This document shows positions 3,034-47,400 of a DNA stretch of 64,000 nucleotides, piece by piece; position 1 is the first letter of the stretch, and the number at the start of each line of letters is the position of its first letter. This stretch comes from Capitulum mitella (Eukaryota; Arthropoda; Thecostraca; Pollicipedomorpha; Pollicipedidae), in assembly GCA_030062745.1 (NCBI GenBank), contig CP099839.1:41527891-41591890 (forward strand), in the 5' to 3' direction. The position numbers and the translations under genes are program-made. The notes under the pieces are model-generated. The model did no database searches, was not told the origin of the DNA, and was given only the letters and a program-made list of their open reading frames with translations.

Positions 3034-3366
3034 CCTCGAGTCGCCGCCGCTCGGCTCGTCAGGGGCCGAACCTCGAGTCGCCGCTGCTCGGCTCGTCAGG
3101 GGCCGAACCTCGAGTCGCCGCTGCTCGGCTCGTCAGGGGTCGACCCTCGAGTCGCCGCCGCTCGGCTCGTCAGGGGCCGACCCTCGAGTCGCCGCTGCTC
3201 GGCTCGTCAGGGGCCGACCCTCGAGTCGCCGCTGCTCGGCTCGTCAGGGGTCGACCCTCGAGTCGCCGCCGCTCGGCTCGTCAGGGGTCGAACCTCGAGT
3301 CGCCGCTGCTCGGCTCGTCAGGGGCCGACCCTCGAGTCGCCGCTGCTCGGCTCGTCAGGGGCCAGG
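3034..3366. repeat. 37-bp minisatellite, 9 units
   Basis: Unit begins CCTCGAGTCGCCGC and ends GGGGCCGAA. Unit starts fall at 3034, 3071, 3108, 3145 and so on, exactly 37 bp apart. Units differ mainly by C/T changes. Since 37 is not a multiple of three, all frames cycle through the same 37-residue translation, explaining the long arginine/serine-rich open frames. Not a protein gene. Confidence 0.9.
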
Positions 3367-9269: not shown

Positions 9270-9949
9270 TGGCCGCGTCAGATCTCGTCACCACCGCTTC
9301 AGATCCCGCCGGCACCGTGTCCGATCCCGCTGACACGTGCACCACTAGCGCGTCATCAGATCTCACCAGCGTGGCGTCAGATGTCGCCGACGTTGCGTCA
9401 GATCTCGCCGACGCGGCGTCAGATCTCGCCGACGCAGCGTCAGATCTCGCCAACGCAGTATCGGATTTCGCCGACGCAGCGTCAGATCTCGCTGACGCAG
9501 CGTCAGATCTCGCCGACGCAGCGTCAGTTCTCTTTGACTCGGAGTCAGACGTCGCTGATGCAGCGTCAGGTGTCGCCGATGGAGTGTCAGACCTCGGTGA
9601 CTGAGAGTCACCGAGATCTGACACTCCATCGGAGTCAGATCCCGCCGATGCGGCGCCAGCGGTTACAAGCGAGGCGTCAGATTTCAGCGGCATTGCGTCA
9701 GTTCTTACCAGTTCGGCGATGACCGGCAAACAGATATCTAGCCGATATCGGACTAGGCACCTCATAGGCAGCATCGTGTCTCGCCCAGACATTTCTGTCG
9801 CCAATGAAGGTTCACACATCACCGAAGCAACGTCAGACCTCACACGCAACCGATCGCACTCTATATGGGACGTCAGTCTTACTGACGAGAACACGTCCGA
9901 CTGACGCAGCCGTCCGAGGCTACTGACATACAGTCAGATCTCACCGGCA
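9270..9949. repeat. 21-bp minisatellite (GCCGACGCAGCGTCAGATCTC type)
   Basis: Units of 21 bp carrying GCGTCAGATCTC are clear from about 9340 to 9540 and degenerate outside. Because 21 is divisible by three, heptapeptide repeats (SDLADAA on plus, SARSDAA on minus) stay open in several frames, giving a 275-residue minus-strand frame that I do not regard as a gene. Repeat words reappear after the MITE at 10379, so the MITE interrupted the array. The array contains the palindrome at 9576-9632. Confidence 0.8.
9576..9632. repeat. Long palindrome inside the minisatellite
   Basis: Two 27-bp arms with one mismatch around the 3-nt spacer GAG at 9603-9605. The inner arms read CTCGGTGACT and AGTCACCGAG. 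The minisatellite orientation flips at this point. Confidence 0.85.
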
Positions 9950-10790: not shown

Positions 10791-11647
10791 CCGCCGGATT
10801 GCCAGTGATGCCCCGAAGCGTCGCTGCTAACAAGGTTATGTCTTTGGTCCATAGGCAAACGGGGGGGGGGGGGCAGGAGAGTCATTGCCTCTCCCTTTTA
10901 AGGTGGAGGTAGCATTGTTAATCGGATCCTGCACTTTCTGTGACTTTTTTTAGTTTTCTTTTAGGTAATCTAAAACATGCTTGGCGCTTTGCCCAGTTCA
11001 CCTGTAATCTATCTCAAAACCTACTGGATAAAATTGTTCCATATTATAAAGGAATGATTTGTCTGATTGCATGAAAAAAATGATGTGGGAGCACCTTATG
11101 CTACCATATCTACCAAATATTCTGATAGTCAGATATTCTGAGGCAAACTGTAGCGCACTCTCGCACTTAGCCGCACATTTTAAACCCAGCTGATAATGTT
11201 GCCGGCAACGCTTATGAAACTAATGAGAGGGTGAGTAGTCGTTAATAGAACAGATCATAGGAGGGCATCATCATCATCATCATCATAGGAATAGGGGGTC
11301 ATGCCCCCACTTTTCAAAGTAGGAGGGCCAGCAACGGTGCTTATCCCCTATTTCTCAATATCCTTCGAAGGTATATTGCAACAGCTAAAGAAAAAACATT
11401 ACAAATGATCACTTTTAACAGTAAATCCCTCCAAATTAGGCAGTAAAGGCGAAAAATCATCAAGAAGTCCTACACAGAAATGTAGATAGTAGACACACTT
11501 CCAGTATCCATTTAACTGGTGAAAGTCTCAACGATGTCTTGCCCATACTAAGGACGAAAATGCAATTACATTTGCAGGACAGCTGTAGGTGTTCTGTATT
11601 TTGCGCAGAACCGCTTCCTGACTTCTCGACTCTATTTTGAATATAGA
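10791..11647. other. No gene recognised
   Basis: AT-rich unassigned DNA with a 12-nt G run at about 10861 and a short CAT trinucleotide run at 11267-11287. It ends at the Helitron terminus. No genes seen. Confidence 0.45.
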
Positions 11648-12311
11648 CTAGCGGCAAACAGCCGGCCTGTCGGCCGGCATCGCCCCATCTAGATGCTGTC
11701 GCTACGAGCTCGTTCCTGTACCCCCATACCCCCCGAGTTGCCCATGTACGCCACACGACACATTCGCGACGCCCCGACAGCAATTTGGAAGTCTGCCGCG
11801 CCGCGCATTTAAAGTTCTTTGCGCGTTCCAATTTTGGAATCGAATCAAGTTTCGGCCAAAGAGGTGACCGAACTGATCCTGGGACCGTCCCACCACCACC
11901 ATCAAGTTGCCGGCCGGCGAGAACCTCGTCGGGCTGCCGCGCCGCCGGTGCGGGCCGTCCTTGGCGTGCGGCATCCCTCACTCGCTGCTGGCGGTGGCGG
12001 TTGCGCTGCATCGCGTCTGGGTCCTCGCGACGACGCTGCTCGCGCTCGTGCTCCCGCTCGGCATACTGTTCATCACGGCGCGCGTCTCTCAGTCTAGCGG
12101 CGACGGCCTCCCTTACCTCCACATCCGCGGCACGGGCCACTCGTCGGCGCTCCAGTTCGGCGGCTCGTTCGGCCTCGTTCAGGGCCTCGCGTCGCAGCCG
12201 GGCCCGCTCGGCCGCCCTGCGCCTGTCGGCCGCGCTCGGCCGGCGCCTCATCGCGAGCGTATCACAAATCCACTTCGGGCGCAATACACTTTCACAGTAC
12301 ACACACTCCAT
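11460..12311 (-). CDS. Arg/Glu/Ala-rich Helitron ORF, copy 1 (uncertain)
   Basis: An open frame of 283 residues, starting at ATG 12311 with an in-frame stop a short way upstream. The first residues hold a CxxC pair (MECVYCES). About residues 20-120 are a highly charged Arg/Ala/Glu segment with repeated RRR and AER words, likely a helical or coiled-coil basic region. Similar charged N-termini are known in Helitron-encoded proteins of arthropods, so this may be a leftover N-terminus, but no Rep or helicase motif follows. The frame continues past the element's 3' end at 11648 into flanking DNA, so the C-terminal part is not conserved. Copy 2 has the same frame with only a few residue differences. 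It may be an unspliced or non-functional remnant. Confidence 0.35.
   Translation of the reverse strand: MECVYCESVLRPKWICDTLAMRRRPSAADRRRAAERARLRREALNEAERAAELERRRVARAADVEVREAVAARLRDARRDEQYAEREHEREQRRREDPDAMQRNRHRQQRVRDAARQGRPAPAARQPDEVLAGRQLDGGGGTVPGSVRSPLWPKLDSIPKLERAKNFKCAARQTSKLLSGRRECVVWRTWATRGVWGYRNELVATASRWGDAGRQAGCLPLVYIQNRVEKSGSGSAQNTEHLQLSCKCNCIFVLSMGKTSLRLSPVKWILEVCLLSTFLCRTS
11661..11678 (-). terminator. Helitron 3' subterminal hairpin, copy 1
   Basis: Perfect 7-bp stem GCCGGCC/GGCCGGC with loop of 4 nt, 9 nt from the terminal CTAG. In Helitrons this hairpin is thought to act as the rolling-circle termination signal. It is not a transcription terminator call. Confidence 0.8.
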
Positions 12312-12648
12312 AATTTCACGCAAAACGCTTGTAGTCCAGGAAGCCTAAATCGGCCAGAACACACACAGCACAACACGTATCAGACGAATGGCTTATTTTT
12401 TCAATGCGCCACGTATGTAAATCGCGCAAATGCAAAAAAAAAATCACGTGTTCGGTCACGTTTTTTTCTCGGGCACTGCTCACTTGAAGTCACTAAGAAG
12501 AAAACAACAGACCAATAAAGGGAAGAAATAATCGGAAACTGTTATTAACATGGTAACCGCATTCATTTCCCTCCATGCGGTTTCTACCGTAAGACTACCT
12601 AGGGTACAATGTAGCCGCTGCCTCGTCCTCCTGGGTTTTGCTTTTCTA

Positions 12649-13134
12649 TTTTAGGTATGAGCAAGGGGAGCCCTAATTGACGAAAAAATCACGCAAAAGA
12701 CCAAATAAGACCTTTTTGTACGCTTTCGTTGAAAACAACCGCAACGAGACACACCAAATGGCCTATACCGACGCATTCACAATTGACTGACGAACTTGAT
12801 GCAAGTATTTTCAATGGCCAGCTCCCAATGACGGCGCCACAATCGTCAACCGAACACAAAACGCTGAAAATGCGTCGATTTTGCGCATGAAGCCAATTTT
12901 ATGTATGAGCAAGGGGAGCCCTAATTGACGAAGAAATCACGCAAAAGACGAAATAAGACCTTTTTGTACGCTTTCGTTGAAAACAACCGCAACGAGACAC
13001 ACCAAATGGCCTATGCCGACGCATTGACAATTGACTGACGAACTCGATGCAAGTATTTTCAATGGCCAGCTCCCAATGACGGCGCCACAATGTTCAACTG
13101 AACGCAAAACACTGAAAATCCGTCGATTTTGCGC
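12649..13134. repeat. Two 248-bp tandem units in Helitron copy 1
   Basis: Unit starts at TTTT followed by GTATGAGCAAGGGG, at 12649 and 12897, exactly 248 bp apart. The second unit is slightly shortened where it runs into the 5' block. Each unit keeps a 60-odd-residue minus-strand frame, more or less open, which I treat as incidental. Confidence 0.85.
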
Positions 13135-13731
13135 AAAACTACGACATGCATCGGTTCGGTTGATGCCCCATGGCACGAACAGTTATGTCAAGTATGATGA
13201 TTTTATTGCGGCGTCAGAACGACAAAACTACGGCCTTTCCATTGGTACCAATTTTGCCAACAACGTCACACTGCATGCTGTCGAAATCGCAGTGTAAACA
13301 CAAATGAACCGGTAATGAAAAATGTTGCCATTTTGAAACCTTTGAGAACGGCCATTTTTCTCGTTGCCTCGGGTGGCACGCGCCACGTGCCGAACCCCGC
13401 GCCACGTGTTCGGTGTCATGCTGTTCCCCTGCAGATTCTCTTTCGATGGCATTTGGTTTGGTGTCGATGCGACCTGCGGTTGCCGAGATCGGGCGCCCGG
13501 AAGCGGCGCGCGACACCGTTTTTGCACGATGTCGTCAAAAATACATGCAAACCCTATGGGCGACTGTAGCGGGTGCCACGCGCACCCCGTGCACCCCCGA
13601 CGCCCGAAAACGTGACCAGAATGCATTGTGCCACCAAACCCCTGACCTGGCCGAGTTTCAGCCACGTGCCACTTGTAGTCTTGCCACACCAGCCCGTCAA
13701 AACCGAACTCCGACGGTCGACATTTTAAAAT

Positions 13732-14409
13732 TTATAATATAGAGACTAGCGGCAAACAGCCGGCCTGTCGGCCGGCATCGCCCCATCTAGATGCTGTCGC
13801 TACGAGCTCGTTCCTGTACCCCCATACCCCCCGAGTTCCCCATGTACGCCACACGACACATTCGCGACGCCCCGACAGCAATTTGGAAGTCTGCCGCGCC
13901 GCGCATTTAAAGTTCTTTGCGCGTTCGAATTTTGGAATCGAATCAAGTTTCGGCCAAAGAGGTGACCGAACTGATCCTGGGACCGTCCCACCACCACCAT
14001 CAAGTTGCCGGCCGGCGAGAACCTCGTCGGGCTGCCGCGCCGCCGGTGCGGGCCGTCCTTGGCGTGCGGCATCCCTCACTCGCTGCTGGCGGTGGCGGTT
14101 GCGCTGCATCGCGTCTGGGTCCTCGCGACGACGCTGCTCGCGCTCGTGCTCCCGCTCGGCATACTGTTCATCACGGCGCGCGTCTCTCAGTCTAGCGGCG
14201 TCGGCCTCCCTTACCTCCACATCCGCGGCACGGGCCACTCGTCGGCGCTCCAGTTCGGCGGCTCGTTCGGCCTCGTTCAGGGCCTCGCGTCGCAGCCGGG
14301 CCCGCTCGGCCGCCCTGCGCCTGTCGGCCGCGCTCGGCCGGCGCCTCATCGCGAGCGTATCACAAATCCACTTCGGGCGCAATACACTTTCACAGTACAC
14401 ACACTCCAT
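13732..14409 (-). CDS. Arg/Glu/Ala-rich Helitron ORF, copy 2 (uncertain)
   Basis: Counterpart of the frame in copy 1, starting at ATG 14409 and 225 residues long. It has the same CxxC start and charged Arg/Glu/Ala segment, followed by a glycine-rich stretch (GGGG) and a less structured tail. It runs through the element's 3' terminus and stops a few codons into the 5' end of copy 1, so the stop is supplied by the neighbouring copy. No catalytic motif of Helitron Rep or PIF1-type helicase is present. It is probably a remnant N-terminal exon or a captured fragment. Confidence 0.35.
   Translation of the reverse strand: MECVYCESVLRPKWICDTLAMRRRPSAADRRRAAERARLRREALNEAERAAELERRRVARAADVEVREADAARLRDARRDEQYAEREHEREQRRREDPDAMQRNRHRQQRVRDAARQGRPAPAARQPDEVLAGRQLDGGGGTVPGSVRSPLWPKLDSIPKFERAKNFKCAARQTSKLLSGRRECVVWRTWGTRGVWGYRNELVATASRWGDAGRQAGCLPLVSIL
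13759..13776 (-). terminator. Helitron 3' subterminal hairpin, copy 2
   Basis: Identical to the hairpin of copy 1 (7-bp GC stem, 4-nt loop), 9 nt from the terminal CTAG at 13746-13749. Confidence 0.8.
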
Positions 14410-14747
14410 CATTTCACGCAAAACGCTTGTAGTCCAGGAAGCCTAAATCGGCCAGAACACACACAGCACAACACGTATCAGACGAATGGCTTATTTTTTC
14501 AATGCGCCACGTATGTAAATCGCGCAAATGCAAAAAAAAAAATCACGTGTTCGGTCACGTTTTTTTCTCGGGCACTGCTCACTTGAAGTCACTAAGAAGA
14601 AAACAACAGACCAATAAAGGGAAGAAATAATCGGAAACTGTTATTAACATGGTAACCGCATTCATTTCCCTCCATGCGGTTTCTACCGTAAGACTACCTA
14701 GGGTACAATGTAGCCGCTGCCTCGTCCTCCTGGGTTTTGCTTTTCTA

Positions 14748-15482
14748 TTTTATGTATGAGCAAGGGCAGCCCTAATTGACGAAAAAATCACGCAAAAGAC
14801 GAAATAAGACCTTTTTGTACGCTTTCGTTGAAAACAACCGCAACGAGACACACCAAATGGCCTATACCGACGCATTCACAATTGACTGACGAACTTGATG
14901 CAAGTATTTTCAATCGCCAGCTCCCAATGACGGCGCCACAATCTTCAACTGAACACAAAACACTCAAAATGCGTCGATTTTGCGCATGAAGCAAATTTTA
15001 TGTATGAGCAAGGGGAGCCCTAATTGACGAAAAAATCACGCAAAAGACCAAATAAGACCTTTTTGTACGCTTTCGTTGAAAACAACCGCAACGAGACACA
15101 CCAAATGGCCTATGCCGACGCATTGACAATTGACTGACGAACTTGACGCAAGTATTTTCAATGGCCAGCTCCCAATGACGGCGCCACAATCGTCAACCGA
15201 ACACAAAACGCTGAAAATGCGTCGATTTTGCGCATGAAGCCAATTTTATGTATGAGCAAGGGGAGCCCTAATTGACGAAGAAATCACGCAAAAGACGAAA
15301 TAAGACCTTTTTGTACGCTTTCGTTGAAAACAACCGCAACGAGACACACCAAATGGCCTGTGCCGACGCATTGACAATTGACTGACGAACTCGATGCAAG
15401 TATTTTCAATGGCCAGCTCCCAATGACGGCGCCACAATGTTCAACTGAACGCAAAACACTGAAAATCCGTCGATTTTGCGCA
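14748..15482. repeat. Three 248-bp tandem units in Helitron copy 2
   Basis: Units start at 14748, 14996 and 15244, 248 bp apart. They can be told apart by linked variants such as TATACCGACGCATTCAC against TATGCCGACGCATTGAC. The last unit matches the last unit of copy 1. Confidence 0.85.
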
Positions 15483-16092
15483 AAAGTACGACATGCATCG
15501 GTTCGGTTGATGCCCCATGGCACGAACAGTTATGTCAAGTATGATGATTTTATTGCGGCGTCAGAACGACAAAACTACGGCCTTTCCATTGGTACCGATT
15601 TTGCCAACAATGTCACACTGCATGCTGTCGAAATCGCAGTGTAAACACGAATGAACCGGTAATGAAAAATGTTGCCATTTTGAAACCTTTGAGAACGGCC
15701 ATTTTTCTCGTTGCCTCGGGTGGCACGCGCCACGTGCCGAACCCCGCGCCACGTGTTCGGTGTCATGCTGTTCCCCTGCAGATTGTCTTTCGATGGCATT
15801 CGGTTTGGTGTCGATGCGACCTGCGGTTGCCGAGATCGGGCGCCCGGAAGCGGCGCGCGACACCGTTTTTGCACGATTTCGTCAAAAATACATGCAAACC
15901 CTATGGGCGACTGCAGCGCGTGCCACGCGCACCCCGTGCGCCCCCGACGCCCGAAAACGTGACCAGAATGCATTGTGCCACCAAACCCGTGACCTGGCCG
16001 AGTTTCACCTCCGTGCCGCATGTGGTGTCGGCGCACCAGCCCGTCAAAACCGAACTCCGACGGTCGACATTTTGAAATTTATAATATAGAGA

Positions 16093-18680
16093 TTTGACCA
16101 GCAAAAGTCGAGTAGCTACCTTGCGCATGGCAAGAGTGATGATAAATAAAAATATGCTTGCAGGGCCGTGCTCTGTAATGCTGGGCAGGGCGGCTTCTTG
16201 ACTTTTACTTTGCTTTCCTTCCTAACAAGGCATAGTTAGAATGACTTTCGGGCAACTCAGTAGCATTAAAATATGCCGTCAAAACGAAGTTCTTCCACGG
16301 AGTGATTCATGGGTACCCACTGACGAAAAAGGTTTCGCTGATTGCTAACATACATCGCCATTCTGCTCTCCGACCACCACCACTCGAATAATTAAATAGA
16401 ACACCCGACGTTTTTTAACAGAATCCTAACAAACAGAACATACAGAATAAACAGAATAAACAGAAGTGCACGGGCGTGCTGTCCCGGCTGTTTGTGAGTT
16501 TGACACACAGTCTCTTAGGCTCAGGTGTTCAGTCTTGTGTCTCGTCTGGCGTCAGTCAGTCGCCTGGTGGCACGACCGTTAGTTTTTAATGCCCACGGCG
16601 CGACTGACAACAAAAAATCATTGTTTTGTCTCGTGTACGCCGACATTGCACACGACACGAAAGGGAAAGAAAATATGCATTGGACATATTTTTGCAATGA
16701 ATTCATATACTGTGGCCCCCTCAAAGTTATCACCATGCGTCCAATTTGGTGATTAAGCTGACGGATTAAAACTTAAATAAATCGATTTTTTTGGTATATC
16801 TAGGCTTTGCATCTATACGATTTTTGCAGTTTACTTTTTCATATGCACCTGAAAACTACATTCTAAGGGAAGTAAATACGCTACAAGATTCCGACTTGTG
16901 AGTTGTTAGTGGCGACCAAAAGAAATTCTGACCTACAACACCACTGCGCTTAAATTTTTGTATAATTTTGGTGCTAATGTGGCCGTGAGACTCTGCCTCG
17001 TGTGGAGGAAATCGGTCAGGAGACCATATGCAACATGAAGCCCTTTCTGAACCACGTCCCATTTCAGGCTTGCCCCGCGAGAACATTTTATGTTCTCATT
17101 GAGTACACGGAATGAGCGAATTATTTGGCTTAACACTGGGTCTGACGATTTTTTTGTCGGGCCGCATTCCCCTCTCCGGATTAGCTAAAATGGTTTTGAT
17201 CAAACATTTTACTTTTGTCGGACCTTACCTGTACCAGTCATTTAAATTTATTTGGCCCTTGGCCCCATTTTTTGAAACGTGTTCCTACGCATGTGCTGTG
17301 GCCAGCCATTTACAACTTTTGACACGAGTACACGGAAGACGAAGGTAATGCTGTAGGTTCATACCAAACTCACCACTTTTTCGACTAAAACTTCGCGTAA
17401 GCGATGGTCTAACTGAATCGTTCAAGCAACAGTACGTTCTGAGCAAAGATCATGCCTCCGTTGCAGATTAAACAAATGCCATTCCGTTTAGCGGCTAGCA
17501 TGACCAACTGCGAAATATGAGATCTTTGCCAATTCACCGATGCACTGAAAGTGCTACAAAAGACTGCCTCTCGGAGAACGATTGAGACTAGAAGAACCAA
17601 AGCTTATTTTTCAGAATTGGTGTTATTTTCTACACATTGCAATAGCATGGAAACGCAATGTCAATTTTACGTAATGTCGAAAGAGTAATTCAGAATTGAC
17701 AAATATTTCTTTCGTTGTCAGTTTTAATACTCCATCATGCATCAGGCCAAGCTTTTGCATGGCGTAAATCCTTCGGCCTATTTAGCTAGAAACATAAGTT
17801 GTTTTATTTCATCATATTCGAAAGCGCGCCAAATCAGCGGAAGCAAGAAAAGGATAAGTTATAATGAAGCCTTATAAATATAACCCTTAAATGAAAAGCT
17901 GCAATGGCCCCTCATTGTGGAACGGCATTCGTAACTCATGATCACTATCCATGTAGTCATGCATGGTGAGTTGAGACATGATCATGAGAAAACTCAAGTT
18001 TGGACATATTTAGGTTCAGACACCAATCAGGTTTGGATAACTACAAAAATCAGTGGAGATGTTCTGTTAAATGTTTATCAAAACAAGCAGAGTTAAACAA
18101 AAACTTGATTTGCGTTTGTCTAAAAACCCAAAAATTGGTCATGAAAAGTCTAAGAGGTTTTTTAAACAGTATCCCAGATCATTTTCAGCATTTCATTGCT
18201 GAGGAATGATGACGCATTTTTTTGCAAATGTTTTTTTTTGTCGCGTGGAACATTTTACTTCCATATGAACTTAACCAAGGATGTAGGAAACCAATGTCGA
18301 AAACGTCCTCCAGCTGGGACATGAACGTTGTATTTTCTCCGGCATCAATAACAGCTTATTGTTGCACTAACTGTTACAACACCCACTAGCATTGCATCAG
18401 TTCTAGCTCTGTAAAAAAAAATGCAGAGTTGATATGGAAACCGGCGTTGAAAAATAAATGTTTTAAATACATTTCATCAGACTGGTCTGCTAAGCTGATG
18501 TTAAGGATCGAAGCCCTTGCTAAGCAGAGCTTGCTGCAAAGGTTTCGAGCCCTACAACCGACCGAGCAATTCCAGGTAGCGGTTGGTACTTTGTGGTGAA
18601 AGTCCAACGGGCCATCAAAGATTGGATAGATCACGTGGTAGTCATGACCTTCTATTGGCCAGTTGCCAAATGACCCACGG
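16093..18680. other. No gene recognised
   Basis: About 2.6 kb of AT-leaning sequence. Short frames only, no transposon termini or tandem repeats found. Confidence 0.45.
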
Positions 18681-23527: not shown

Positions 23528-23778
23528 GCTCCCGCCGTGACACTGGCGGCCTGAACACACTGACGGTTTCAGTACCAACAGAACAAGGAAACACGTTGGC
23601 GACCTCAGCTGCGGGCGCCCTGGGCCTGGCTGTCATACTGTTGATGCAGCGGAAAGAAAGCCAAATTCTGATTATAACTCAGACACGCGACATTAATACG
23701 GAGTTCGTCATTTGAAGTGGTATTACTAAAAGAGGTTCGGACACGGAACAGTGCAGTCAGTTGGCCTGGCACAGAGCC

Positions 23779-24185
23779 GTGTGGTGAGTGGTTGGACACG
23801 GCGCCGTGTGGTCAGTGGTTGGATACGGAGCCGTGTGGTCGGTGGTTGGACACGGAACCGTGTGGTCAGTGGGTTGGACAAGGAGCCGTGTGGTCAGTGG
23901 TTGGACACGGAGTCGTGTGGTCAGTGGTTGGATACGGAACCGTGTGGTCAGTGGGTTGGACAAGGATCCTTGTGGTCAGTGGTTGGACACGGAGCCGTGT
24001 GGCCAGTGGTTGGATACGGAGCCGTGTGGTCAGTGGGTTGGACAAGGATCCTTCTGGTCAGTGGTTGGACCAGGAGCCGTGTGGTCGGTGGTTGGACACG
24101 GAGCCGTGTGGTCAGTGGTTGGACCAGGAGCCGTGTGGTCGGTGGTTGGACACGGAGCCGTGTGGTCAGTGGGTTGGACACGGCG
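23779..24185. repeat. 27-bp minisatellite, about 15 units
   Basis: Unit GTGTGGTCAGTGGTTGGA followed by CACGGAGCC. Some units carry an extra G (GTGGGTTGG), shifting the frame. As 27 is divisible by three, 9-residue repeats (WTRSRVVSG type) are open in several frames. These are not genes. Confidence 0.85.
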
Positions 24186-25626: not shown

Positions 25627-26080
25627 GCCCTCGCTACTTGTAGCTCAGGGTCCCTTTGTATTTACTAGAGTCCTATACCTTGGAAAGGGTCTGTGAGCTG
25701 CCAAAACGGGGCTTAAGCCGCCCCAAGGGCCTCTTGGTCATAGAAGGTTATTAGGGCCATATCAAAGGTAAGGAATGTTAAAAGGGGTCTTGAGCTCTCA
25801 AAGCAGCTCTTGATTGGCCTTCAAGCTCTTAAAGGCCGCTGGACTCTCAAAAGGATTTCTTGGCTTCCGAATGACTCCCGGTCTTTCAAAAGATTTCTAG
25901 TGATTAGAAACACTCTTTGCTTAAAGTAAGGCCTTTTGTGCTTAATTGCTATCATTTGTTCAAAAGGCATGCTCTTTTTCCTCAGAATTTGTCTTTGTAC
26001 CCAAAAAGCAGACCGATCTGTCCGAACTGGGACAGGGAACATGTCTGGCCCTTGGCTGCCAGTCGGCGGCCAGCAACAGT
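25627..26080. other. No gene recognised
   Basis: Continues the CTC/AAGG low-complexity character of the preceding tract to about 25900, then average sequence. Confidence 0.35.
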
Positions 26081-26339
26081 GCGGGTCGGACGCCAGTACG
26101 GACCTGACCGGCGGTGCGGGTCAGATGCCAGTACGGACCTGACCGGCGGTGCGGGTCGGACGCCAGTACGGACCTGACCGGCGGTGCGGGTCAGATGCCA
26201 GTACGGACCTGACCGGCGGTGCGGGTCAGATGCCAGTACGGACCTGACCGGCGGTGCGGGTCAGATGCCAGTACGGACCTGACCGGCGGTGCGGGTCAGA
26301 TGCCAGTACGGACCTGACCGGCGGTGCGGGTCGGACGCC
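26081..26339. repeat. 35-bp minisatellite, 7 units plus partial
   Basis: Unit starts GCGGGTCAGATGCCAGTACG and ends ACCTGACCGGCGGT. The first unit is at 26081 and the partial unit starts at 26326, so seven units fit exactly. Units are nearly identical, differing by TCAGATG or TCGGACG. Confidence 0.9.
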
Positions 26340-44705: not shown

Positions 44706-46532
44706 CAGTCAAATCTCGTTACTATGCCACCCGTGGGGACCGAGCGAAAGTGGCATAGTAGCGAGAGTGGCATAGTAACGAGGGTTTGTAAAACGGCTTT
44801 ATTCTCTCAAGTTACCCATCAACTCAACCCAAAGTTCTCAAGAATCGTCGGCTGGCGCATCTTCTTTCGGCGGATCTCGTGCATCTCGTTGTCTAGCCGA
44901 TCGCACGCTTGCATCACACCGGGCTTCCCGCTTCTCTGCTGCATGAACTTCCGGACGGTGCTCCATGCGCGCTGGGCTTCCTCGAACGGAACGATTTCCT
45001 CCTCGACAGTTACCTCGTCGTCTTCGCTTTCCACCGGCTCCTCGCTGCGCAGCATCTCCTCCACAATCTCCTCCAGCGTGCAAGACCCGCCAGTCGCGAG
45101 GCGCTCGTCGGCTTCGAGAAAGACAGCTCGATCTCCTCGTTCTCTTGCATCTTTCCCTCGGCAGGCAGAGCTTCCCAGATCTCGAGCAGCTCAGCATGCT
45201 CTGGCTCAGTTTGGATCTCCTCTTCGATGAACATGGCCTTCGCGAAACAGTTCCTGATCGTCGACTCGCTGACCTGCTGACGTGACCACGCCGGGCGACG
45301 TGTAGAGCGTCGAGCAATGTGAACTTGAAAACTCTTTTCCCTCGTCCATGGCCTCGAGCCGGCGGCACAGCAGGAACTTCATGTAGTGGCGCTTGAGGTT
45401 CTCTATGATTCCCTGATCCATTGGTTGAGAATTGGCTGTCGTGTTGGGTGGGAAGAAGACCAGTTGGATGTTGTCCAGCTAGAGCTCGGGAGGGTGGCCA
45501 GAGAAGTTATCGAGACAGAGCAGCACTCTGCGTCCTTGCTGGCCGAGTCGTCCGTCCCACGCACGCAACACCTCGAAAAGCTCCGCCGTCATCCACGCCT
45601 TCGAGTTCGCCTTGTACTTGACCGGGATCTCCTTGTTCTTGAAGGCACGGGGTCTCTTGGAATTGCCGATCGCCAGAAGAGGGAACTTCTCGCTGCCGCT
45701 CATGTTTGCCCCGACCAGAAGAGTGATCCTTTGCTTGCTTCTCTTCCCTCCAGTGCACCGCTCTCCCTGAAAGCCATGGTCTTGTTCGGAAGCAGCTGTC
45801 AGAAGAGTCCAGTTTCGTCCAGGTTGAAGACGTCGTCTGCGGAGAACTGCCCGAGCAAGGGCCGGGGGACCTGTTGTTGCCACTCAAGCAGGGATTGCAA
45901 ATCCACCGCTCCAACTTCGCCCTGCACTGTCTTGAACGTGATGCCGTGGCGCTTCTTGAAATTGTCCAGCCAACCGTCGCTCGCCATGAAGTCCGGGATG
46001 TGCATCAGCTCGGCCAGTTTCATCGCCTTCTCCTTGATCAGATCGCCGCTGACTGGCAGATTCTGTCCTCTTGCTTGCTTCAGCCACATGAGCACCCCCT
46101 CATCGAGCTTTGGGTCGTGAGCCTGCGTCAGCTTCATGCGCTTCGATGGAACTCCAGCTTTGATGGCCGCCTCGATTGCATCCTTCTTGCTGAGAATGCC
46201 CTTCACGGTGGTTCTCTTAACTTCGACGCCCCATTTCTTGCTCATCTCCCTGGCCAGCTTGGACTGATTCGGCTCCTTCGCGGCATCGATGATCTCCTTT
46301 TTCTCCTTCTGCGTAAAGTCGGTTCGCTTGCGCTTCTGAGCTGACATTGTGGGCTGAATTTGAAAAAAAAATTGAATTCGAAAATACAACACATACAATC
46401 GTGGCATAGTAGCGAGATTAGGGGGTGGCATAGTAAATTTATTTTGTATTGAATTTGGTAGGGCCCGAGCAGAAGTGGTATAATAGTGAGAGTGGCATAG
46501 TAGCGAGATGGCATAGTAACGAGATTTGACTG
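44706..46532 (-). mobile_element. Tigger/pogo DNA transposon, full length but inactivated
   Basis: An 1827-bp element with perfect 24-bp terminal inverted repeats beginning CAGTCAAATCTCGTTACTAT and a TA duplication (44704-44705 and 46533-46534), diagnostic of the Tc1/mariner-pogo group. Subterminal copies of TGGCATAGTARCGAG occur inside both ends. It contains a minus-strand transposase broken by frameshifts and one stop. The intact ends suggest a fairly recent insertion that might still be moved in trans by a related enzyme. Confidence 0.93.
44819..46347 (-). pseudogene. Tigger-like transposase pseudogene
   Basis: Starts at ATG 46347 (MSAQKRKRTD). Residues about 5-60 form the pipsqueak-type helix-turn-helix. 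About 65-140 form the CENP-B-type DNA-binding domain (MLKQAR-like helix, DGWLDNFKKRHGI). The DDE_1 catalytic domain follows. The three acidic residues expected of pogo enzymes are visible: NLDETG (about 45810), LCLDNFSGH (about 45500) and PMDQGII (about 45420). The reading frame is broken at about 45800, 45325, 45250 and 45090, and a TAG interrupts at 45479-45481. The C-terminus is acidic (VEEEIVPFEEA) and ends at the stop at 44819. Length of about 505 codons fits the family. The protein would have cut and pasted the element by binding the inverted repeats. It is not functional as it stands. Confidence 0.9.
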
Positions 46533-46534
46533 TA

Positions 46535-46799
46535 CACGTATTTAGAAGAGCTCGGAGAAGATCATTTGACCTGGAATTATAACTCCGAGAGGTCAGATCG
46601 CTCATACTAAAACAGAGTGTCATGTAGCGTGTGAAAAAGCTACCTTTAAAGTTGCCAAAGTCGCATTTTGGTCCTTTTTTCGTAAACTGCAGTGGAAGGT
46701 ATGCAACGATTGACTTCGAACGAAACCGGACTCCGGCTCTGAATTCGAGCTGGTATGTTTGTTCCCCATCCGCGCACCACGAGCGTGAGCTGTCGTTTT
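46535..46799. other. No feature recognised
   Basis: Short unassigned stretch between the Tigger element and a CpG island. Confidence 0.4.
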
Positions 46800-47400
46800 C
46801 ATCAAGATGCCGCTGAGCCGGATGCGCCGGCGCATTGCAGCCACCCCTGCGTCACCGTGCGCTTTCATGCGTGTCTGCCGCGTGCGAGGGTGTGTCACGG
46901 CGCTGGAGCGCGTTTGTGTGCGTCGGCTGGTCTCCCGTCGCCGCGACCGCCGGCGTCGGGTGTCACACGTCACTGGCACCGTCCAATTTGCCATCGGTCC
47001 CCTCCGGCCGGCCGATCGACTAAATCTCCCGGAAATTACGGCGTTCCATCTCGGTGTTCTGCATTCACAGGATTGAAATTTGTCATCCCGGAGCGCACCA
47101 GAATTGTCAGAGTTGCGGATGGCTGCGCTGAGCTATTGCTTCATTTGGCGCTAAATCCCCTCTTTGGGCGCGCGCTTTTTGACAAACGACGACGATTACG
47201 GCGGCCTGGGGCGGCGACGCGGCCGACGGCGCGGAGAGACGACAGTGTCCGACGCCCCGGACCGGCCGGGCCCGGCGGTACATAAATATCACCAGCCGAG
47301 CGGAGCCGGCCACCCCGCCAGGCGGCCGCGCCGAGCCGCCGCCGCCGCCGGCCGGCCGGCCGGCCGGCCAGCCGCGCAAACACCCTCAGGGCAGAGTGTC
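46800..47400. promoter_or_regulatory. CpG island
   Basis: CpG- and GC-rich with GGCCGGCC near 47008 and a 26-nt run of alternating GGCC units near 47346-47372. Includes CACACGTCAC near 46964 and ATAAATATC near 47281. Possible promoter or enhancer. Frames in it are composition artefacts. Confidence 0.45.

Follow-up and report, generated by a model that had tools for sequence, protein, structure and literature searches.

How two complete Helitrons come to lie head to tail, with not one host base between them, is the question raised by positions 11648-16092 of a 64-kb stretch of the Capitulum mitella genome (C1:41527891-41591890; hereafter the window). The preliminary description of this stretch attributed the pair to a recent duplication of one copy, either by rolling-circle replication that had read through the first 3' end or by way of a circular intermediate. 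Our analysis of the window and of the host genome (477,042,490 bases in 16 contigs) points instead to two already existing lineages of one family that became joined. We lean towards an end-directed event, in which one family member, here called D, was inserted first and a different member, U, was later joined to the 5' terminus of the resident D.

A joint without host sequence

Both units are complete non-autonomous Helitrons on the minus strand, each beginning with TC and ending in CTAG. Unit U, the upstream one, occupies 13746-16092 (2,347 nucleotides, nt) and unit D, downstream, 11648-13745 (2,098 nt); they meet at 13746/13745 in the perfect junction CTAG/TCTC, where the slash marks the joint. 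The position and polarity of this joint, first described as CTAG/TCTCTATATT, proved correct, as did the outer host bases, which in the minus-strand reading are A to the left of U and T to the right of D. The 22-nt junction occurs exactly once in the window, compared with a mean of 0.00 in 100 shuffles at ≤3 mismatches.

The 5' terminus (LTS) of U, TCTCTATATTATAAATTT, lies at 16075-16092, and that of D, the proposed joining site, starts with the same letters at 13728-13745. The 3' termini (RTS) lie at 13746-13776 in U and 11648-11678 in D, and both contain the GC-rich hairpin GCCGGCCgacaGGCCGGC, a 7-bp stem with a 4-nt loop, 9 nt before CTAG. A hairpin had been reported at both ends of the elements; it is confirmed at the 3' ends of both units (z -2.57), whereas their 5' ends lack it (z about -0.5). 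U and D have the 5' TC, the 3' CTRR and the GC-rich hairpin near the 3' end of canonical Helitron1-type elements. The family also inserts in the canonical way, between A and T and with no duplicated target. The hairpin is flanked by CTAG on both sides (10 nt before and 9 nt after; 11648-11692 and 13746-13790), and it is possible that it reads as a terminus on either strand. Internally, U has three 248-nt tandem repeats (14747-15482) and D has two (12648-13135), the second of which is U2-like with a U3-like middle.

Relatives of the two units

Aligned pairwise, U and D differ by 31 mismatches in 2,098 positions, by one 248-nt repeat (three copies versus two) and by a single T; the multiple alignment gives 32 difference sites. 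The high identity noted in the preliminary description therefore stands as an average but does not extend evenly along the units. Eleven of the 31 mismatches fall in nt 60-104 (15989-16033 in U, 13642-13686 in D) and 15 in nt 1-200, with only four in nt 1347-2347, while 20,000 permutations never placed more than seven in any 50-nt stretch. This unevenness speaks against two identical daughters that merely drifted apart.

The differences were traced through 22 parsed loci with 44 units, namely the window pair and 24 stretches from 21 other places. As the genome search scored 24 of 783 candidates, the parsed loci over-represent arrays; the whole-genome pattern counts given below are less biased but demand exact ends. 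At 30 of the 32 difference sites, spread over nt 19-2255, both alleles are found among 36 other intact units, so that these differences are polymorphisms common to other copies. Across the family, the diagnostic stretch at nt 60-104 takes several forms; U and D have different ones, each of them also present in other units. Of the two remaining sites, nt 1683 is private to U and nt 2166 to D; one private base per unit suggests, by inference from the sequence, that the pair is young.

The nearest relatives of the two units lie on other contigs. Among the units compared, the closest to U is L028_1 on contig C7 (distance 0.0057), with D only tenth of 43, and the closest to D is L026_1 on contig C2 (distance 0.0044), with U eighth. 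Over whole units, U differs from L028_1 at 18 of 2,346 positions and D from L026_1 at 10 of 2,098, compared with 32 of 2,098 between U and D. Because the alleles at 30 of 32 sites are shared elsewhere and the nearest relatives lie on other contigs, U and D belong to two lineages. Of the marks of a read-through array, the pair shows the perfect 3'-5' junction but not units from one source copy, and the proposal of one-copy read-through or a circle is not supported for this pair.

The same joint elsewhere in the genome

A search for further junctions of this kind, as the preliminary description had suggested, found 31 exact copies of the 22-nt sequence in 477 Mb and none of its reversed control. 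The 18-nt 5' end has 96 exact copies (reversed control 0) and the main-type RTS has 71; ends with one mismatch (13 rows of one end search, 20 matches of the other) lie outside these counts. Nearly a third of the exact 5' ends, 31 of 96, thus sit directly after the CTAG of an RTS. We classified the sequence preceding 85 of the 96, a set in which the count of 31 joints is complete. Two others follow CTA without G, six follow CTAG and a few bases, five follow TCTCTA copies, four come after the opening 11-13 nt of a second 5' end, and the remaining 37 are preceded by host or other DNA, which has A at that position in 24 cases and ends in TC in 11. Viewed from the other side, the sequence right after the 71 main RTS is an exact 5' end in 27 cases, an altered 5' end (extended, shortened or partial) in 12, host-like DNA with an initial T in 29 and other DNA in three; the next base is therefore T in 29 of the 32 RTS that have no 5'-end sequence after them.

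Four of the 71 adjoin a 5' end from nt 12 onwards. At first CTAG/TAAATTTT seemed to prove that an element had inserted within a 5' end. We dropped this reading because at L014 the left side is without the missing first 11 nt, so that single cases are not conclusive. Two further arrangements were seen at 5' ends. One is a double-start element with 5' ends 98 nt apart (L035 with L022, C1:34824080 and C1:34824178), similar to reports from Fusarium. The other comprises four 5' ends preceded by 15-17 nt of family unit body (C6:5281859, C11:10821917, C9:6824950 and C1:39168565), which suggests nested insertions into unit bodies.

Units that adjoin are seldom sisters. Of 21 neighbouring pairs compared, 16 have exact joints and five near-exact ones (6 or 1 nt off). 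In 19 of the 21, between 9 and 31 of about 600 sites differ, and 8% to 95% of between-array pairs are closer than these neighbours. Neighbours were compared over their first 600 nt because foreign middles inflate the distances. In the distances among all units, for which L025_1 was cut where the following 5' end starts, 30 of 36 array units (with one tie) have their nearest unit in another place, and the mean distance within arrays is not below expectation, with 4580 of 5000 label shuffles as low or lower.

Nor are the joined 3' ends all of one type. The main RTS accounts for 27 of the 31 exact joints and that of B units for two; a third type and a distant type account for one each. B units are 88-91% alike to main units in their shared parts and have a different middle. 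At the L028 joint, a main unit that is 99.2% like U over its full length directly follows the RTS belonging to a B-type unit, whose two shared parts are 90% and 91% alike and whose middle has about 1 kb without a match. L026 has a B-type joint of the same kind, as judged from the first 116 nt of the downstream unit. The third type, at L037, is 97% alike over 253 nt, and the distant RTS at L038 matches U over 76 nt at 78%.

Host targets of the family

The family's insertions into host DNA share an extended target. Once three copies of one host repeat had been merged and three rows without an initial T set aside, 27 non-redundant right flanks of host DNA remained. All of these have A at +10, while 20 have A at +11 and 13 have C at +2. 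The string [TC]AA[AT], starting at +7 to +10, is present in 25 of the 27 compared with 579 of 7029 background A/T sites, all taken from the 64-kb window (Fisher p 3.8e-25). The flank to the right of D, TCTATATTCAAAATAGAGTC (11628-11647, minus strand), fits this motif; when the model excludes this site, as good a score is reached by 28 of the 7029 background sites. Inside the 5' end, the A/T between nt 11 and 12 is equalled by 2 of 7029. Three other ideas about the target were abandoned. Motif scoring ruled out our initial view that the 5' boundary would make a very good ordinary target. A target resembling the element's own junction (5 of 7277 sites as good, post hoc) is better explained by the family-wide motif, and an argument from base composition, the 5' end being A+T-rich (196 of 7277 sites as rich), was superseded.

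One dispersed host repeat provides the empty site, with 5,152 matches at ≤3 mismatches (reversed control 0). Because this site reads through uninterrupted, it supports A/T insertion without loss or duplication. The repeat is occupied at the same position, with both flanks, on C2, on C14 and at L014, and with one flank seen at C16:998015, C15:9698729 and C15:10283250. Its occupancy, 3 to 6 against 5,152 empty, is far below the 31 of 96 joined 5' ends. Good host targets thus abound but are seldom used, and 5' ends are scarce but frequently joined. These rates are not strictly comparable, as some of the joints could be duplicates of a single event and the repeat may be younger. The insertions at this one position of the repeat (C2:13624604, C14:16437558, C15:10911337, C16:998032, C15:9698729 and C15:10283250) have different 5' variants.

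The host DNA on either side of the pair (16093-16216 and 11511-11638) forms a diverged direct repeat of about 130 nt with a score of 58. The maximum of 2000 shuffles was 43 and none of 3345 window pieces scored as high; with 400-nt flanks and dinucleotide shuffles, the maximum of 500 was 62.

Origin of the pair

We propose the following course of events. First, D would have inserted between a host A and T at a site with the family's target motif. The 3' end of U would then have been joined precisely to the boundary between the host A and the first T of D, through the 3'-to-5' end joining that Helitron transposase performs, to give A/U/D/T with a perfect CTAG/TC joint. For this, the transposase would have treated the resident 5' terminus as an element end and not as an ordinary target, perhaps nicking it like a donor end; the incoming form may have been a circle. 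The data establish the anatomy of the pair, its two lineages, the recurrence of the joint and the joining of foreign 3' ends. We infer the order, D and then U, from the host A on the left of U, and likewise infer the transposase as agent and its recognition of the resident 5' end. End-directed joining is favoured because target choice fails for the 5' boundary and read-through from a single source fails for the mixed units. A wider claim, which we regard as possible rather than probable, is that the resident 5' terminus is a dedicated, nickable integration site for the 3' end of any related Helitron, so that mixed arrays would grow by accretion, whereas dispersed insertions would use the extended A/T target with A at +10, usually within TTAAAT.

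Several observations weigh against this proposal. As an ordinary target the resident 5' boundary scores poorly, since it lacks A at +10 and 468 of the 7029 background sites are as good (one of the three scorings was made without L019 and L026 and with L034 shifted by one base); plain target choice therefore does not explain joints at this boundary, and end recognition has to be assumed. No D-only allele was seen that would bear out the proposed order of events. In nt 301-600 the affinities change, U being nearest to L019_2 and D to L019_3, L021_2 and L022 units; the units are mosaic, so that conversion or recombination has acted in the family. Two of the 21 neighbouring pairs, both in L018, have no differences in their first 600 nt, and near-identical units (distance 0.0006) occur within arrays at L011_1/3, L018_1/3 and L019_1/4. 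Finally, L019 and L022 have in common a 6.4-kb multi-unit block, 99.5% identical across two joints. Block exchange or movement, read-through or local reinsertion thus occurs as well, and some joints are not independent events. Read-through or multimers may account for other arrays, as for the L018 neighbours without differences.

Among the alternatives, the one that fares best, although we judge it unlikely, is that a circle of one family member, which already bore the CTAG/TC junction, recombined homologously with a resident copy (Campbell type) and left reciprocal chimeras. Such integration accounts for the perfect joints, for the mixed units and for the preference for copies as sites, and the family is visibly mosaic, with common blocks of arrays that end inside units. 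However, L028_1 is among the units closest to U, and L026_1 among those closest to D, in the first 300 nt as well as in the last 497 nt, an argument tempered by nt 301-600, which point elsewhere, and by the 3' half, which is nearly monomorphic. Moreover, the joints with foreign RTS at L028 and L038, the latter RTS having almost no homology, are not easily made by crossover inside units.

Somewhat less probable again is rolling-circle read-through of one copy, or a multimeric circle, giving an identical tandem that later diverged by gene conversion. Perfect joints are what circles carry, as passages on Helraiser describe (PMC4778049, PMC5876387); near-identical units exist inside some arrays, and the uneven divergence and mosaic affinities of U and D could include conversion tracts. 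The perfect joint alone does not show read-through, however, since 19 of 21 neighbouring pairs are not sisters but differ at at least nine of about 600 sites. Conversion would also have to contend with 30 differences out of 32 that are common to other copies over nt 19-2255, and with the joints to foreign RTS types.

Alternatively, two copies could have been linked in trans, the 3' end of one to the 5' end of the other, ahead of a single insertion of the resulting heterodimer at the host site. A single insertion at a good host target would yield the observed structure by the same joining chemistry that forms circles. We nevertheless consider this improbable: 5' ends interrupted by another 5' end suggest that insertion into resident 5' ends takes place by a different route. 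An assembly error is very improbable, for although 2-kb repeats at 98% identity are hard to assemble and the pair is known from the assembly rather than from reads, U and D differ at 31 sites and by 248 nt, and an artefact of this one place is unlikely because the exact 22-nt junction was found 31 times in the 16-contig assembly.

Coding content and other features of the window

Scanning of two open frames against Pfam revealed no recognisable Rep/helicase, and U and D are presumably too short to hold a complete one; for these reasons we regard the units as non-autonomous. U contains a 236-residue open frame (13732-14442, minus strand) without a significant Pfam match, possibly a relict. The long frames of U and D differ at 4 of 231 residues and nt 1347-2347 differ by four nucleotides, so there is no sign of constraint on the frame. 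The 231-236-residue frame found no relative in Pfam (best E 0.41), in PDB (best E 0.0073, a bacterial kinesin light chain) or in IMG/VR and GTDB (zero relatives). In IMG/VR, two longer unit patterns had no match and the 18-nt 5' end had two; Rfam gave no match at gathering thresholds.

Elsewhere in the window, an open frame at 45799-46851 (minus strand) encodes a Tc5-type transposase DNA-binding domain (Pfam HTH_Tnp_Tc5, 2.7e-17), and minisatellite arrays lie at 3034-3363, 9356-9596, 23734-24183 and 26079-26339.

Comparison with known systems

Tandem Helitrons and consecutive insertion are already published. Among titles and abstract openings we found none on such an extended target motif or on mixed perfect arrays counted genome-wide, which is weak evidence of novelty because subscription papers fell mostly outside the search. 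If resident 5' ends are indeed preferred joining sites, this would help to explain the clustering of Helitrons and chimeric elements. The extended motif at host targets, in turn, makes a concrete prediction on target recognition.

Perfect head-to-tail Helitron joints have been cited as support for rolling-circle transposition (PMC5876387). In the bat Myotis lucifugus, Pritham and Feschotte (2007; via PMC2267711 and PMC4067079) reported tandem Helitrons with perfect head-to-tail junctions like that of the present pair. Those tandems were attributed to bypass of the termination signal, whereas the units described here come from different lineages. Arrays in bat and silkworm are mentioned in PMC4067079, as are distantly related Helitrons that directly adjoin each other; insertion near other Helitrons is mentioned in PMC12477314, citing Yang and Bennetzen, and Helitron circles and A/T insertions in wheat in PMC13286980.

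The transposase of Helraiser makes and cuts precise RTS-LTS junctions (PMC5876387, PMC4778049). Its circles resemble the present joints in this precise joining, and its insertions in their A/T targets, with A+T-rich DNA mostly on the 3' side. Helraiser is an experimental system, however, and a resident 5' end as a site is absent from the passages considered. FoHeli and a three-copy tandem of Metarhizium acridum (PMC5148889) offer a further likeness in self-insertion, multiple 5' termini and tandem copies, and the same two models are discussed there; unlike the present family, they have non-canonical, Helitron2-like ends and comprise few cases.

Another precedent is a pair of adjacent maize Helitrons, for which Du et al. 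(2008; PMC2267711) stated both models. There, as here, CTAG is followed at once by TC, and insertion between the host A and the first T of the resident is one of the models given. The maize case is a single pair of clearly different contents, for which the order was left unsettled. In contrast, the present family provides many joints within one family, together with a host target motif from which the 5' boundary departs.

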